32,226 bases of DNA, taken from the NCBI RefSeq assembly GCF_019683595.1, contig NZ_JADGHZ010000026.1:1-32226 (forward strand), written 5' to 3'. The stretch is from Sphaerobacter sp. (GTDB lineage: Bacteria; Chloroflexota; Chloroflexia; Thermomicrobiales; Thermomicrobiaceae). The translations under genes were made by a program, and so were the position numbers. The notes beneath the pieces were generated by a model. It did not search any database. It saw only the letters and a list, made by a program, of their open reading frames with translations, and had not been told where the DNA came from. This document shows positions 449 through 29,030 of the stretch, in pieces. Numbering within the stretch: the stretch's first letter is position 1; each line of letters begins with the position of its first letter.

Positions 449-2140
449 CTAGAACAGACCCCGGATGGTGCCGTCGTCGTCGATATCTACGTTGAGCCCG
501 CCGGGCTTGCTGCCGAGGCCGGGCATGGTCCGCATCTCCCCGATGATCGGGTACACGAACCCGGCACCGGCCGACAGCCGAGCCTCGCGGACGGTCAGCT
601 CAAAGCCCTCGGGTCGCCCGCGGAGGTTCGGATCGCCGCTGAGTGAGAGGTGCGTCTTGGCCATGCACACCGGGAGCTTGTCGTAGCCCATGCTGCTGAA
701 GGTGCGCAGCGCGCGGGCAGCCGCGGGCAGGTAGGTGACGGACCCGGCGCCGTAGAGCTCGCGGGCGATGATCTCGATCTTGTCGGTGAGCGGCATGTCC
801 AGCTCGTAGAGCGGGCGGAAGGAGTTCGGCTCCTCCGTCGCACGCAGCACCGCGCGTGCCAGGTCAGCGCCGCCCGCGCCGCCCTCGCTGTGCACCCGGG
901 TGGGCACGGCATCGAACGCGCCGGCCTTGAGCGCCACCTCGCGCACCAGCTCGATCTCGGCCGCGGTGTCGGTCGGGAACTGGTTGATGGCTACCACGAC
1001 CGGCACGCCGAAACGGCGCACGTTCTCGATCTGCTTTTCGAGGTTGCCGATCCCCTCACGCAGTGCGTCGAGGTTCTCGCTCACGAGGCCCGGGTCGAGC
1101 GGCTTGCCGGCGACGATCTTGTAGCGACCGCTGTGCGCCTTCAGGGCGCGGATGGTCGCGACGAGGACGGCGGCGTCCGGCTTCAGCCCGCTGACGCGAC
1201 ACTTGATGTCGCAGAACTTCTCGAACCCGAGGTCGGCGCCGAACCCTGCCTCGGTGACTACCACGTCGGCGAGCTTGAGGCCGATCAGGTCGGCGAGGAC
1301 CGACGAGTTGCCGTGAGCGATGTTGCCGAACGGACCGGCGTGGACGATGGCCGGCGTGTGCTCGAGGGTCTGGAGCAGGTTCGGCTTGAGGGCGTCCTTT
1401 AGCAGAGCGGCCATGGCGCCAGCCACCCCGATGTCCTCAGCGGTGACCGGCTCCTTCTTGCGGTTGAGCGCGACGACGAGCCGACCCAGCCGCTGGCGGA
1501 GGTCGCGGTAGTCGGTGGCCAGGGCCAGGACCGCCATGACCTCCGAGGCCGCCGTGATGTCGAAACCGGTCTGGCGCGGGATCCCGTTACCGGCCCCGAG
1601 GCCGATGACGATGTCGCGCAGGGTCCGGTCGTTCACGTCCATCACGCGCCGCCAGAGAACGGCCGTCTGGTCGATGTCGAGCGGGTTGCCGTGGTAGATG
1701 GAGTTGTCGAGGAAGGCCGCGCAGAGGTTATGCGCCGCGGTGACGGCGTGGAAGTCGCCGGTCAGATGGAGGTTGAAGTCCTCCATCGGGATGATCTGGC
1801 TGTAGCCACCGCCGGCCGCGCCACCCTTAATCCCGAAGACGGGACCGAGCGACGGTTGCCGGATCGCCACGATCGCGCGAGTGCCGATCTTGCCGAACGC
1901 CTGGCCCAGCCCGACGGTCACCGTCGTCTTGCCCTCGCCGAGCGGGGTGGGGGTGATGGCGGTGACCACCACGTACTTGCCGTTCGGCCGATCCTTGAGG
2001 CGGTCCCGGATCGAGAGGCTGATCTTGGCCTTGTAGGGACCGTACAACTCCAGTTCGTCGGGCTGGATCCCGAGGTCCGCCGCGATCTCGGTAATCGGCT
2101 TCGGCGTGACCTGACTCGCGATCTCGATGTCCGTGAGCAT
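449..2140 (-). CDS. fhs: formate-tetrahydrofolate ligase
   Basis: Fhs makes N10-formyl-THF from formate, THF and ATP in the cytoplasm, supplying formyl groups for purine and initiator-tRNA formylation. The 563-aa product matches the usual length of about 555-560 aa. The ATP-binding stretch TPTPLGEGKTT lies near residue 65, followed by the family signature GIKGGAAGGGYSQ and a DFNLHLTGDFHA segment. An in-frame ATG lies 33 nt further upstream, but I chose 2138-2140 because GAGGGGAG sits 4-5 nt before it and the protein then begins MLTDIEIASQ, as expected. It is the third gene of an fchA-folD-fhs operon, 43 nt after folD. Identification is secure. The in vivo direction (formate assimilation or formate release) cannot be told from sequence. 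Confidence 0.97.
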   Translation of the reverse strand: MLTDIEIASQVTPKPITEIAADLGIQPDELELYGPYKAKISLSIRDRLKDRPNGKYVVVTAITPTPLGEGKTTVTVGLGQAFGKIGTRAIVAIRQPSLGPVFGIKGGAAGGGYSQIIPMEDFNLHLTGDFHAVTAAHNLCAAFLDNSIYHGNPLDIDQTAVLWRRVMDVNDRTLRDIVIGLGAGNGIPRQTGFDITAASEVMAVLALATDYRDLRQRLGRLVVALNRKKEPVTAEDIGVAGAMAALLKDALKPNLLQTLEHTPAIVHAGPFGNIAHGNSSVLADLIGLKLADVVVTEAGFGADLGFEKFCDIKCRVSGLKPDAAVLVATIRALKAHSGRYKIVAGKPLDPGLVSENLDALREGIGNLEKQIENVRRFGVPVVVAINQFPTDTAAEIELVREVALKAGAFDAVPTRVHSEGGAGGADLARAVLRATEEPNSFRPLYELDMPLTDKIEIIARELYGAGSVTYLPAAARALRTFSSMGYDKLPVCMAKTHLSLSGDPNLRGRPEGFELTVREARLSAGAGFVYPIIGEMRTMPGLGSKPGGLNVDIDDDGTIRGLF

Positions 2141-2183: not shown

Positions 2184-3044
2184 CTATCCAGCGCGGCGGC
2201 CGCCGAGCGCGGCCCACGCGGCGCGGAGCGTGTTCTGGACGAGAATGGCATTTGTGACGGCGCCGGTGCCCCCCGGAACCGGCGTCAGCGCGCCGGCCAC
2301 CTCTCCCACGGCCGGCTCGACATCCCCAATCATCTTTCCGTCCACGAAGCTAACGCCAAAGTCAATAACGGTCGCGCCCGGCTTGACCATTTCCGGTCGC
2401 ACCAGACCGGGCCGGCCGGCGGCGGCCACCAAGATGTCCGCCTGGCGGGTCACGGCGGGCAGGTCGGACGTCCGGCTGTGACAGACGGTAACGGTGGCGT
2501 CCGCTGCGATCAGCATGAGCGCCATCGGCAGGCCGACGACCGGGCTGCGGCCGATGACGACGGCGTGGCGCCCGGCGATCTCGATGCCGTAGTGCTCGAG
2601 GATGGCCATCCCGCCCGCGGGCGTGCTCGGTGGCAGCGCTGGGAGGCCGACGGCGAGGCGGCCCGCGCTGGCAGGCGTAATACCGTCCACATCCTTTGCG
2701 GGATCGACCAGCTCGGAGGCGATCCCGGCCGGCAGGTGCCGCGGCAGCGGCTGGAGGACGATGATCCCGCTGACAGCCGGGTCGGCGTTCAGGTGCGCCA
2801 CCGCCTCCCGCAGCTCGGCCTCGGCGACGTCGCCAGGAAGCGTCACGTCCCGCACCGGGATACCGACGCGGTCGAATGTGCGGTGGATGGCACGCACGTA
2901 GGCGGCGGCGCTGGCGTCGTCTCCGGCCAGCACCGTGGCGAGCTCGGGAGGGCGCCCTGCCTGCGTGACGTATTCCGCCAATTCCTCACGCGCGCGCTCC
3001 AATATCGCACGCGCCACCGGCCGTCCCTCAAGTGCGATCGCCAC
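2184..3044 (-). CDS. folD: FolD-family methylene-THF dehydrogenase, altered cyclohydrolase site
   Basis: This is a 286-aa FolD homologue, an NAD(P)-dependent methylene-THF dehydrogenase that in most bacteria is also a methenyl-THF cyclohydrolase. Seen here: the PLPRHLP and DPAKDVDGI folate-site segments, the nucleotide-binding GRSPVVGLP motif (about residues 163-171) and a C-terminal PGGTGAVT in place of the common PGGVGPMT. The start is GTG at 3042-3044, preceded by GGAGGAGGGG; the longer open frame upstream is unsupported. The start lies inside the fchA coding region (17-nt overlap), implying translational coupling. Oddity: by my alignment, the catalytic lysine of the YVxxK motif (E. coli K54) is Ile53, and the glutamine of VQLPLP (E. 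coli Q98) is Leu97 (VLQPLP), while the aspartate (E. coli D121) is kept as Asp120. Dehydrogenase function is likely; cyclohydrolase function is doubtful. Confidence 0.93.
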   Translation of the reverse strand: MAIALEGRPVARAILERAREELAEYVTQAGRPPELATVLAGDDASAAAYVRAIHRTFDRVGIPVRDVTLPGDVAEAELREAVAHLNADPAVSGIIVLQPLPRHLPAGIASELVDPAKDVDGITPASAGRLAVGLPALPPSTPAGGMAILEHYGIEIAGRHAVVIGRSPVVGLPMALMLIAADATVTVCHSRTSDLPAVTRQADILVAAAGRPGLVRPEMVKPGATVIDFGVSFVDGKMIGDVEPAVGEVAGALTPVPGGTGAVTNAILVQNTLRAAWAALGGRRAG

Positions 3045-3765
3045 GCAGCCCCTCCTCCATCGGTTTCCCGGACATTTTCGCGCGGGTGAGATCCAGCGCC
3101 TGCCTGGCCAGTGCCGGTGCCTCCTCGCGGATCTGGTCGACGGTCGTGCGCAGCTCGGCTGCGCGGGTGGCATCGGGGAGAAGACCGAGGTTGACCTCGC
3201 TCATCAGCAGTGCAGCCTCGATCGCGCCCTGGGCCAGGGCGGCCGCGGCGCCGAGGTCACTGACGGTGAAGCGCGCCGCGAAGGGTACGGCCGCGAGCAC
3301 GAGGCGCAGGAGCGCCAGGCCGTCCTGAGCCAGGGTGATGGGCGTCTCTGCGGCCAGGGTGAGGCTCCGCTGGAGGGCTTCCTCGGCCGCGCGCTGAGCT
3401 TGTGGGTCGACGCCGGCTGAAGGGCGTGCGGCACGGTGCGCCTCCAGAAGGTCCGACAGGACGGCGATGTCCTCATCGGCCGCGGCAAGGAAGCGCGTCT
3501 GAAGGTGGCCCAGCCTGTCGCGGATCTCTTCCACTTCAGCGCGGTGGGGCTGCACCGACTTCCGGCGCAGCGAGAGGGTCGCGACCAGCTCGGCCGTGGC
3601 GGCGGCCAGTGCCAGGGTCGCGGCGGCGGCGACGCCACCGCCGGCCGGCTGCTGAGGATCGGCGAGCCGACCGGCGACCCCGGCCAGGGACTGTTCGGCG
3701 ACCCGGAGCTGCTGCGGAGCTTCGGGACTCAGGTCGACCCTCCTCTCACATCCAGAGATTCCCAT
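3028..3765 (-). CDS. fchA: cyclodeaminase/cyclohydrolase-family protein (FchA-type)
   Basis: This 245-aa, mostly helical protein belongs to the formiminotransferase-cyclodeaminase family. In stand-alone form (FchA) such proteins act as methenyl-THF cyclohydrolase or formimino-THF cyclodeaminase. Seen here: the N-terminal LADPQQPAGGG segment, equivalent to the family's 'ASPxPxPGGG', then an alanine-rich helix. A VSDLGAAAALAQGAIEAALL region follows late in the protein, where the family has 'SDxGVAA...'. It is first in the operon and overlaps folD by 17 nt. With no histidine-degradation genes around and fhs-folD downstream, methenyl-THF cyclohydrolase is the better guess. The start is uncertain: ATG 3763-3765 has only a weak GTGGGG upstream, whereas AGAGGAGGG lies before a CTG codon at 3730-3732. 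Confidence 0.85.
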   Translation of the reverse strand: MGISGCERRVDLSPEAPQQLRVAEQSLAGVAGRLADPQQPAGGGVAAAATLALAAATAELVATLSLRRKSVQPHRAEVEEIRDRLGHLQTRFLAAADEDIAVLSDLLEAHRAARPSAGVDPQAQRAAEEALQRSLTLAAETPITLAQDGLALLRLVLAAVPFAARFTVSDLGAAAALAQGAIEAALLMSEVNLGLLPDATRAAELRTTVDQIREEAPALARQALDLTRAKMSGKPMEEGLRGDRT

Positions 3766-4067: not shown

Positions 4068-4508
4068 ATGGCGGGACAGGCACCGAGCGCGGCGCCCACG
4101 TTCGCGGAACTTCTCAAGCGCTTCCGGGAGGAAGCCCGTACCTCGCAGAGCCGGCTTGCCGAATCAGCGGGGTTCGACCATAGCTACGTGAGCCGACTTG
4201 AGAGCGGTAATCGCACGCCGACACGTGAGGCCGTTGTCAAGCTGGCGGATGCGCTGGGCCTCACTCCCGAGCAGCGCGACAGCCTGCTCGCCGCGGCCGG
4301 GTACATGCCGCAGCGGGTCGAGAGCCTGCTGGCCGATGAGCCGATCCTGAGCGAGGTGCTGCAGCTCCTGCAGAGCCGCGATATCCCTGAGCCGATCCGG
4401 CAGAACGTGCGGCAGATGCTCCGCTTGATGGTCAATCAGGCGCAGATGGCCGCGATCGGCTGGCCGTCCGGTCCCGATACCTCTCCCGACGCCATGGCGG
4501 CTGACTGA
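4068..4508 (+). CDS. XRE-family helix-turn-helix regulator
   Basis: The product is 146 aa. Residues about 11-66 form a Cro/C1-type helix-turn-helix: LLKRFREEARTSQSRLAESA, then the recognition-helix region DHSYVSRLESGNRTPTREAV and ALGLTPEQRD. The remainder (about 67-130) is helical with no recognised ligand domain and may serve dimerisation. The start ATG is preceded by AAGGGAG 7 nt upstream. The gene has a near-consensus promoter with inverted half-sites close to it, so autoregulation is plausible. It stands alone between the divergent folate operon and dnaE, either of which could be a target. The family is clear but the specific role is not. No toxin or prophage neighbour suggests a mobile-element regulator. 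Confidence 0.88.
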   Translation: MAGQAPSAAPTFAELLKRFREEARTSQSRLAESAGFDHSYVSRLESGNRTPTREAVVKLADALGLTPEQRDSLLAAAGYMPQRVESLLADEPILSEVLQLLQSRDIPEPIRQNVRQMLRLMVNQAQMAAIGWPSGPDTSPDAMAAD

Positions 4509-26231: not shown

Positions 26232-27578
26232 ATGTCGTTCGTCCCGCACACGCCAGCGGATCGCCAGGCGATGCTCGACGCCGTCGGCGTGCGCTCAATC
26301 GAAGAACTGTTTGAGCCGATCGATCCGGCGATTCGATTCCCGAAGCTGAACCTGCCGCCGCGCCTGTCCGAGCCGGAGGTGTCCCGGGAGGTCGCGCGGC
26401 TCGCCGCGAAGAACCTGAACGCCTCGACGGCGACGACATTCCTCGGGGCCGGCAACTACAACCACTATGTCCCGGCCACGGTTCATCAGATCCTCTTCCG
26501 CGGGGAGTTCTACACGGCGTACACGCCGTACCAGCCGGAGGTGGCCCAGGGCACGCTCCAGGTGATCTATGAGTTCCAGACGATGGTGGCGGCCCTGACC
26601 GGCATGGAGGTCGCCAACGCCTCGATGTACGACGGAGCGACGGCGCTGGCCGAGGGTGCGCTGCTGGCGGTCTCCATCCCGCGCAAGCGGACGAAGATCG
26701 TGGTGACGGGGACGCTGCATCCGCACTACCGCTCGGTACTGCGCACCTACACCCACGGCCTGGCTACCGAAGTGGTGGAGCTGCCGCTTCCGACCGACAC
26801 GCTGCGCGCGACGCCCGACATGCTCGACGGTTATCTCGACGAGACGACCGCATGCGTCGTCGTGCAATCACCCAACTTCTTCGGTCGGATCGAGGACATC
26901 GCGGGCTTCGCCGAGAAGGCGCACGCCGTCGGCGCGCGGCTGGTTGTCTCGACCTATCCGATCGCCCTGGGCCTGCTGAAGTCCCCGGGCGAGCTGGGAG
27001 CGGACATCGTGACGGCCGAGGGGCAGTCGCTTGGGAACGCGCAGTCGTTCGGCGGGCCGGTTGTGGGCCTGCTCGCATGCAAGCAGGAGTTGGTGCGGCA
27101 GATGCCCGGCCGCCTCGTCGGTGTCACCGAGGACTCCGAAGGCAAGCGCGGCTTCGTTCTGGCCCTCCAGACCCGGGAGCAGCACATCCGGCGCGAGAAG
27201 GCGACCAGCAACATCTGCACCAACCAGGGGCTGAACGCGCTGGCAGCGACGGTCTACATGGCGTCCCTTGGCCCGGGCGGCCTGCGCCAGGTGGCCTTGC
27301 TCTGCTACCACAAGGCGCACTACCTGGCCGAGCGCATCGCCGCGCTCCCCGGTTGGTCGGTCGTCGGCGAGGGGCCGTTCTTCAACGAGTTCGCGGTCCG
27401 CGCCCCGCGCGACCCGAAGGAGATCAACCGGGCGCTGGTTCAGGATGGCATCATCGGGGGCTACCCGCTGGGCGAGGTCGACGAGCGCCTGTCGGACATG
27501 ATGCTGGTGGCAACGACCGAGCTGAACACCCGTGAGTCGATCGATGCCTTCGTGGCGTCGCTCGAGCGACTCAGCTAG
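26232..27578 (+). CDS. gcvPA: glycine dehydrogenase (decarboxylating) subunit 1
   Basis: This is the N-terminal-type subunit of the two-part P protein, 448 aa, the usual length. Visible: FVPHTPADRQAMLDAVGV at the start, FLGAGNYNHYVPATVHQIL, FYTAYTPYQPEVAQGTLQ, ANASMYDGATALAEGALLA, VVQSPNFFGRIED and TSNICTNQGLNALAATVYM. The pyridoxal-phosphate lysine is carried by subunit 2 (GcvPB), which should act with it to decarboxylate glycine. That gene is not adjacent: a terminator and der follow. The ATG has GGGAGG about 9-10 nt upstream. It is the third gene of the gcv run. Confidence 0.97.
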   Translation: MSFVPHTPADRQAMLDAVGVRSIEELFEPIDPAIRFPKLNLPPRLSEPEVSREVARLAAKNLNASTATTFLGAGNYNHYVPATVHQILFRGEFYTAYTPYQPEVAQGTLQVIYEFQTMVAALTGMEVANASMYDGATALAEGALLAVSIPRKRTKIVVTGTLHPHYRSVLRTYTHGLATEVVELPLPTDTLRATPDMLDGYLDETTACVVVQSPNFFGRIEDIAGFAEKAHAVGARLVVSTYPIALGLLKSPGELGADIVTAEGQSLGNAQSFGGPVVGLLACKQELVRQMPGRLVGVTEDSEGKRGFVLALQTREQHIRREKATSNICTNQGLNALAATVYMASLGPGGLRQVALLCYHKAHYLAERIAALPGWSVVGEGPFFNEFAVRAPRDPKEINRALVQDGIIGGYPLGEVDERLSDMMLVATTELNTRESIDAFVASLERLS

Positions 27579-27606
27579 CTAACCGCGAGAGTAGCAAATG
27601 CAGGGA

Positions 27607-27639
27607 CGGGCGGGCCGTGTGCTCGCCCGCCCGCTTTCC
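27607..27639 (+). terminator. terminator after gcvPA
   Basis: Positions 27607-27615 and 27625-27633 form a perfect 9-bp G/C stem with a 9-nt loop, followed by CTTTCC. It lies 28 nt after the gcvPA stop and separates the gcv genes from der. Confidence 0.7.
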
Positions 27640-27692
27640 ACCCACCGGCGCAACGCCGCGGGCGGGCGTGACACGGAAGGACAGCAACGATC

Positions 27693-29030
27693 ATGGCACG
27701 ACCGTTAGTGGCGATTGTCGGCCGGCCGAACACCGGTAAGTCGACTCTTTTCAACCGCCTGGTCGGGGAGCGCCGCGCCATCGTCGAGGATCTCCCCGGG
27801 ACGACACGGGACCGGATCTATGCCGAGGCGAACTGGGGCGGGGTCACGTTCGACGTCGTGGATACCGGCGGGCTCCTGAGCGAGCAGGAGATCGAGCGGG
27901 CCTCGGCGGCCGAGATCGCGCAGGCGACCCAGGAGCAGGCGGAACTGGCCATCGAACAGGCCGACGTCATCGTCTTCATGGTCGACGGGCAGGCCGGGGT
28001 CACCGCCGGAGACCACGAGGTGGCCGACCTCATCCGGCGCTCCAAGCGGCCGGTCCTCCTGGCCGTAAATAAGGCCGAGGCGCGCACGATCCAGGATGCC
28101 GCGGTCGAGTTCTACGAGTTGGGACTGGGCGATCCCTACCCCATCTCGGCGCTGCACGGCATCGGTGTGGGCGACCTGCTGGATGCGATCGTCGCCCATC
28201 TGCCGGAGTCCACGGAAGCTGAGCGTGAGGAGGTGCCGAGCATCGCGATCGTGGGCCGGCCCAACGTCGGGAAGTCGGCCCTGCTCAACGCCCTGCTCGG
28301 CCAATCGCGGCAGATCGTCTCGCCGATCCCGGGCACGACGCGGGACGCGGTCGACACCGAAATCACCTGGGCGGGGAACCGGGTGGTGCTGGTTGACACG
28401 GCCGGGATCCGGCGCCCTGGTCGGATCGAGCGCGGGATCGAGAAGTACAGCGTCCTGCGTTCCACCCGCGCGGTGGAGCGGGCGGATGTCGCCGTCCTCG
28501 TCATCGATGCGACCGAGCCGTTCACGGCGCAGGACCAGGCGATCGCGGGAGCGATCGCCGAAGCCAAGAAGGGCATCATCGTCGCCGTCAACAAGTGGGA
28601 CCTCGTCGAGAAAGACCACCGCACCATGCAGGAGTTCACGGAGAAGGCTCGCGAGGCGTTCCACTTCATTTCCTATGCGCCGATCGTCTTCATCTCGGCG
28701 CTGACCGGGCAGCGGGTCAATCAGGTGATGGAGCTGGCGCTGGCGATCTTCGCCGAGCGGCAACGGCGCATCCCGACCGGAGAGCTCAACCGGGTGATCC
28801 GGGACGCCGTGTACCGGCACCCACCGCCGACGAAGCCGAACAAGTGGCTGAAGATCTACTATGTGACCCAGGCCGATGTGAACCCGCCGACCTTCGTGTT
28901 CTTCGTCAACGCGCCCCAGAACGTGCATTTCTCCTACAAGCGTTACCTGGAGAACACGCTGCGCAAGCATTATGGCTTCACCGGCACGCCGATCGTGATG
29001 CGGTTCCGGGCGCGCCGAGAGGATGCGTAG
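27693..29030 (+). CDS. der: ribosome-assembly GTPase Der (EngA)
   Basis: Der is the essential double-GTPase needed for maturation of the 50S subunit. The 445-aa product has two GTP-binding domains: the first with [21 protein letters not shown] and NKAE (acidic residue E instead of D, as in some other Der proteins), the second with [26 protein letters not shown] and NKWD. A KH-like C-terminal domain follows (from about residue 345; [23 protein letters not shown]). The ATG has GGAAGGA about 10 nt upstream. It stands between terminators and promoters of the gcv set and glyA, so it is probably a separate transcript, although no clear promoter was seen in the 53 nt after the terminator. Confidence 0.98.

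Follow-up and report, generated by a model that had tools for sequence, protein, structure and literature searches.

A FolD with both cyclohydrolase residues replaced, encoded next to FchA in Sphaerobacter sp.: a predicted division of labour in folate metabolism

Annotations of FolD call it bifunctional nearly without exception, and so do 25 of the 25 NCBIfam models listed for it. In a 32,226-nucleotide stretch of DNA from Sphaerobacter sp., which we call the window, a folD gene overlaps fchA, and the residues that serve the cyclohydrolase step in E. coli FolD are replaced in its product. This raises the question of which protein hydrolyses methenyl-THF at this locus. Judging from the sequences, we consider it highly probable that FolD is a dehydrogenase only and that FchA does the cyclohydrolase step, as the original prediction had proposed.

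The fchA-folD-fhs locus and the FolD active site

The source genome (3.89 Mb, 99.98% complete) encodes one protein with PF00763, FolD, and one with PF04961, FchA. The genes are transcribed from the minus strand in the order fchA, folD, fhs, and dnaE and an xre-type gene lie on the opposite strand (Table 1). The original prediction placed fchA directly upstream of folD with a 17-nt overlap; this is borne out, and the overlap is identical in both of the other two sampled genomes of the genus. The Shine-Dalgarno sequence of folD lies within fchA, and folD is probably translated in step with it. Beyond the genus the length of the overlap is not conserved: in more distant relatives the genes overlap by up to 17 nt or are separated by as many as 88 nt, and one family within the order has fchA and folD at non-adjacent places. 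In much of the order the fchA-folD(-fhs) group is conserved together with xre and dnaE, and the XRE-type protein may regulate the folate genes. In three sampled genomes from other genera of the family (loci L385-L387), and in others, fhs is missing from the cluster and found elsewhere in the genome. In those three the fhs found elsewhere is of a more distant type with a lower PF01268 score, an apparent replacement of the cluster gene.

Table 1 Positions of genes, signals and active-site codons in the window
Feature	Position	Strand	Remarks
fhs, formate-tetrahydrofolate ligase	449-2140	-	Next gene of the cluster; PF01268 E 2.4e-257
folD, methylenetetrahydrofolate dehydrogenase without cyclohydrolase dyad (predicted function)	2184-3044	-	GTG start at 3044; 286 aa; PF00763 and PF02882
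Asp120 codon GAC (E. coli Asp121, pterin binding)	2687-2685	-	Kept; read in the sequence
Leu97 codon CTC (E. coli Gln98 position)	2756-2754	-	Read in the sequence
Ile53 codon ATC (E. coli Lys54 position)	2888-2886	-	Read in the sequence
fchA, methenyltetrahydrofolate cyclohydrolase-type FTCD_C protein	3028-3765	-	245 aa; exact start uncertain; TGA ends at 3028; PF04961
Overlap between fchA and folD	3028-3044	-	17 nt; sequence reading
AGGAGG, Shine-Dalgarno sequence of folD	3051-3056	-	Within fchA, 6 nt before GTG; sequence reading
FchA Asp99 codon	3469-3471	-	Aligns with FTCD residue 412 and does not vary in the family; from alignment
XRE-type regulator	4068-4508	Opposite to fchA, divergent	Kept near the cluster

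The window FolD matches PF00763 (E 1.3e-28) and PF02882 (E 3e-55), and its AlphaFold model (pLDDT 95.5) superimposes in Foldseek with a TM score of 0.91 on 1b0a and of up to 0.96 on 6v6y. We aligned it to E. coli FolD from NC_000913 and to FolDs from the PDB. The alignment is gapless and equates Y50, K54, Q98 and D121 of E. coli with Y49, I53, L97 and D120; together with the codons it confirms the substitutions that had been predicted. The protein thus has the two domains, the fold and the Tyr50 and Asp121 equivalents of the FolD family, and it lacks both residues that mark a bifunctional FolD, the lysine of the YxxxK motif (K54) and its positioning glutamine (Q98). Realignment brings no lysine into the site: there is no substitute near Ile53 (Y-V-R-A-I-H-R). 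The glutamine that follows L97 (VLQPLP) was considered as a shifted Q98 and rejected; in the gapless alignment it matches E. coli L99, and relatives have M, L or Q at this position (VLMPLP, LLLPLP, VFQPLP). A genus mate (genome G291) carries the same Ile and Leu, so a sequencing error does not explain them.

According to published work, K54 of FolD serves as acid/base in the cyclohydrolase step, Q98 positions it and D121 binds the pterin (PMC3338484; PMC3368264). The E. coli K54N mutant has no detectable cyclohydrolase activity and about 19% of the dehydrogenase activity, Q98H retains about 1% and 8%, respectively, and deletion of K54/R55 abolishes the cyclohydrolase (PMC5688156). Since these homologous mutants lose all or nearly all of the activity, an enzyme carrying I53 and L97 should act solely as a dehydrogenase, and the window FolD should have lost its cyclohydrolase activity. 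In the mechanism that we propose, FolD would be a monofunctional 5,10-methylene-THF dehydrogenase in which Tyr49 and Asp120 are kept for folate binding, the Rossmann domain serves NAD(P), and the acid/base lysine and its positioning glutamine have given way to hydrophobic Ile and Leu. FchA, an all-helical enzyme of the FTCD_C fold and a protein of its own, would convert the methenyl-THF that FolD forms to 10-formyl-THF, and Fhs, from the next gene, would connect 10-formyl-THF with formate.

State of the K54/Q98 pair in FolDs with and without adjacent fchA

We located FolD and FTCD_C in 300 Chloroflexota genomes, in 41 genomes of the window's order and in 199 genomes from the phylum to which a Paraclostridium belongs. 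FTCD_C was in addition located in 246 genomes from the phylum that includes a Thermoleophilia genome. Further loci came from scanning named genomes for FchA; the methylotroph loci among these contain no FolD. Loci were picked by gene position or HMM rank, with the residues unknown at selection. Top-ranking FolDs are enriched in canonical ones, so low-ranking, non-adjacent FolDs were added. Pooling gave 249 distinct FolDs, which come from Chloroflexota, Bacillota, Actinomycetota and other groups; 85 of them have an intact K54/Q98 pair and 164 a broken one. None of the 85 intact FolDs adjoins fchA, and all 137 FolDs that do adjoin it have a broken pair, with fchA upstream in 113 cases and downstream in 24. 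Counts of 0/85 against 137/137 argue that loss of the pair next to fchA is not due to chance. After clustering at 60% identity there are 26 intact clusters, none of them adjacent, and 62 broken ones, 45 adjacent and 17 not (Fisher p 2.9e-11, with kinship not corrected for). The association is phylogenetically clustered. In a tree built without the K54 and Q98 columns, the pair changes state six times on the best tree, the deep branches of which are weakly supported; on well-supported branches there is one independent pair, and with either count significance is not reached when phylogenetic independence is demanded. The survey suggests a general rule by which FolDs encoded next to fchA have a broken K54/Q98 pair.

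The replacements are chemically different and vary between lineages. Chloroflexota have I, L or V at position 54 (E. coli numbering), Actinomycetota V54 with L98, and Clostridia and some Actinomycetota have A54 together with F98 or M98. Clostridia also have 23 folD-fchA pairs in which K54 is kept and Q98 is replaced by Glu, which led us to reject a rule based on K54 alone. Every fchA-adjacent FolD has the pair broken, and the rule has to be widened from the lysine to the pair. The clostridial loci with folD first (L298, L299, L303, L305, L306 and L342-L359) show K54 with Glu98 in every case seen, a distinct and uniform kind of break. A further variant occurs at loci L127, L132, L141, L142, L150 and L158, where fchA-adjacent FolDs have Glu in place of D121, and L142 in addition Phe in place of Y50; the exchange suggests a changed pterin site. 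The mere presence of a PF04961 gene was rejected as a predictor, because intact FolDs coexist with a long frame of FTCD size or with a distant PF04961 gene.

Broken FolDs also occur apart from fchA (27 cases), and for 20 of these FTCD_C is found elsewhere in the genome. Five stand in tandem with a canonical FolD: at L075 and L161 (Chloroflexota) a FolD with ILD or IQD at the three positions accompanies one with KQD, and at L360, L361 and L373 (Clostridia) a QQE FolD does so. Such tandem folD pairs would apparently be a second way to divide the dehydrogenase and cyclohydrolase work, with no FchA at the locus. The remaining two (genomes G307 and G320) come from fragmented drafts in which neither FTCD_C nor a tandem FolD was found.

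FchA and the alternative readings of the locus

The window FchA matches PF04961 with E 3.8e-32. Its predicted model (pLDDT 92.4) is all-helical, with 7vg4 as the best PDB match (TM 0.93 by target length in Foldseek), which is FchA, the methenyl-THF cyclohydrolase of Methylobacterium extorquens (PDB). FTCD and the Thermotoga cyclodeaminase come after it, 1tt9 and 1o5h being among the Foldseek matches. The protein retains GGG, Asp99, Ser169-Asp170 and Asn192, the last four positions being invariant across the family. Asp99 falls on FTCD residue 412, which we take to be an annotated active-site residue of the cyclodeaminase. Two residues shared by all 79 other FTCD_C sequences, an arginine (R103 in M. 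extorquens) and the proline of PGGG, are lost; taking together the window's family and the family that resembles it most closely, both are missing from 17/17 sequences. The score against the NCBIfam FchA equivalog NF045657 is 66.5 bits, below the cut-off of 275. FchA is therefore a member of its family by fold and core residues, yet a divergent one. It very probably does the cyclohydrolase step.

The folate genes of the order bear on its substrate. The formiminotransferase domain PF07837 (FTCD_N) is found in none of the 41 genomes of the order, the source genome included, and the control genome matched; the order thus has no known source of formimino-THF. This makes it unlikely that FchA is specific for formimino-THF, an outcome that the original prediction had named as speaking against it. 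Nine genomes of the order have no Fhs (PF01268) yet have FolD, FchA and PurH, an enzyme that consumes 10-formyl-THF. Eight of these nine FolDs were read, and the pair is broken in all eight. With Fhs absent and PurH kept, 10-formyl-THF could arise in the nine only through FchA or by spontaneous hydrolysis. The opposite combination, Fhs without FchA, occurs in no genome of the order. The window genome has Fhs, so this argument applies to it by kinship. The predicted division of labour is well supported by the E. coli mutants, by the survey of 249 FolDs and by the absence of PF07837.

The original prediction also raised a channelled complex, and a physical association of FolD with FchA for channelling is speculative. 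In its strong form, the two proteins would be an obligate complex, with FolD completing the FchA site or handing methenyl-THF over directly. This we regard as unlikely. What suggests it is that both partners have changed together in the window's family and in the family closest to it, FolD in K54/Q98 and FchA in the Arg and Pro. The junction varies, and the genes lie apart in one family of the order, so a complex is not required. We know of no such channelling for a FolD/FchA enzyme pair.

Slightly less probable still is the reading in which FolD has lost its cyclohydrolase and FchA is a poor one too, so that hydrolysis is largely spontaneous, Fhs supplies 10-formyl-THF from formate, and FchA is relaxed or has another role. 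The loss of the otherwise invariant Arg and Pro would fit it, as would two observations on Fhs: nearly all of the families in which FchA diverges most possess it, and the relatives that lack it, in other families, mostly have an FchA scoring nearer to the canonical one. E. coli without cyclohydrolase activity survives, and K54N mutants apparently do so through spontaneous hydrolysis of methenyl-THF (PMC5688156). However, fchA accompanies folD one to one in 17/17 genomes of the family, and Asp99, Ser169-Asp170 and Asn192 are invariant, which would not be expected under relaxation.

We think it very improbable that FolD is still bifunctional through another acid/base residue, with FchA as an accessory. 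His54 and Arg55 lie next to Ile53 on the same helix, and these or other polar residues could in principle act. But the site has gained no lysine, the replacements are hydrophobic and vary from lineage to lineage, and both K54N and the K54/R55 deletion abolish the cyclohydrolase in E. coli (PMC5688156); the exceptionless link to fchA would also be left without an explanation. Least probable of all is that FchA serves the degradation of histidine or purines as a formimino-THF cyclodeaminase and is a neighbour of folD by coincidence: PF04961 covers cyclodeaminases too, 1tt9 and 1o5h stand beside 7vg4 among the structural matches, and a distant Chloroflexota locus (L032) has a putative formiminotransferase-like ORF upstream of fchA, but FTCD_N is missing from all 41 genomes of the order, and elsewhere in the phylum the FTCD_C frames of about 520 aa, the size of fused FTCD, accompany intact FolDs and are non-adjacent in the loci read.

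Known systems and wider significance

The arrangement predicted here, with FolD as dehydrogenase and FchA as cyclohydrolase, has relatives among known systems. In acetogens (Acetobacterium woodii, Clostridium formicoaceticum) the dehydrogenase and the cyclohydrolase were purified separately, to judge from the titles of Moore 1974, Clark and Ljungdahl 1982, and Ragsdale and Ljungdahl 1984 cited in PMC7793690. Acetogens have the same three genes as the window, with fchA paired with folD (fhs-fchA-folD; gene set in PMC9618320, C. autoethanogenum cluster in PMC3584212). The window differs in its lineage, Chloroflexota, in the order fchA-folD-fhs with an overlap, and in the residues, which are I54/L98 (E. 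coli numbering) rather than the A54/F98 found in a Paraclostridium folD adjoining fchA or the K54/E98 of other Clostridia. In Methylobacterium extorquens the cyclohydrolase step is likewise given to FchA, with which the window FchA shares the 7vg4 fold as modelled, but the dehydrogenase there is MtdA, unlike the window FolD, and a Methylobacterium genome (G342) gave no match to PF00763. The bifunctional FolD/MTHFD enzymes of E. coli, M. tuberculosis and human have the fold, both Pfam domains, Y50 and D121 in common with the window FolD, and differ from it in K54 and Q98. Yeast MTD1 is FolD-like and is described as a monofunctional NAD-dependent dehydrogenase in reference titles in PMC11064299. 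Its structure (1edz) belongs to a protein that is distant in sequence from the window FolD (E 1.5e-6). We know of no pairing of yeast MTD1 with FchA.

Separate enzymes are thus known from acetogens, and the residue rule seems to be unreported in the open literature searched; in open PMC literature we found no paper that states a link between the K54/Q98 pair and fchA. The general rule is of more interest than the locus itself, which is a variant of a known arrangement. From two residues and the gene next door one can predict, with no exception to date, the FolDs that probably have dehydrogenase activity alone. FolD would have to be re-annotated in much of Chloroflexota, in many Clostridia and in some Actinomycetota, and models of one-carbon flux and designs of the reductive glycine pathway would change accordingly. 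Carolacton anchors to K54 of FolD (PMC5688156), so bacteria with a K54-less FolD should be insensitive at that target. Why a bifunctional enzyme with a shared site is repeatedly taken apart becomes a testable question.

Two further observations concern the neighbourhood of these genes. At 26232-29030 of the window, gcvT and gcvH precede gcvPA, which is followed by a der-like GTPase gene and not by gcvPB, so the second glycine dehydrogenase subunit must be encoded elsewhere. On the minus strand at 84-368 lies a gene for a 94-aa hydrophobic protein with no Pfam match; members of the family retain it downstream of either fhs or folD.
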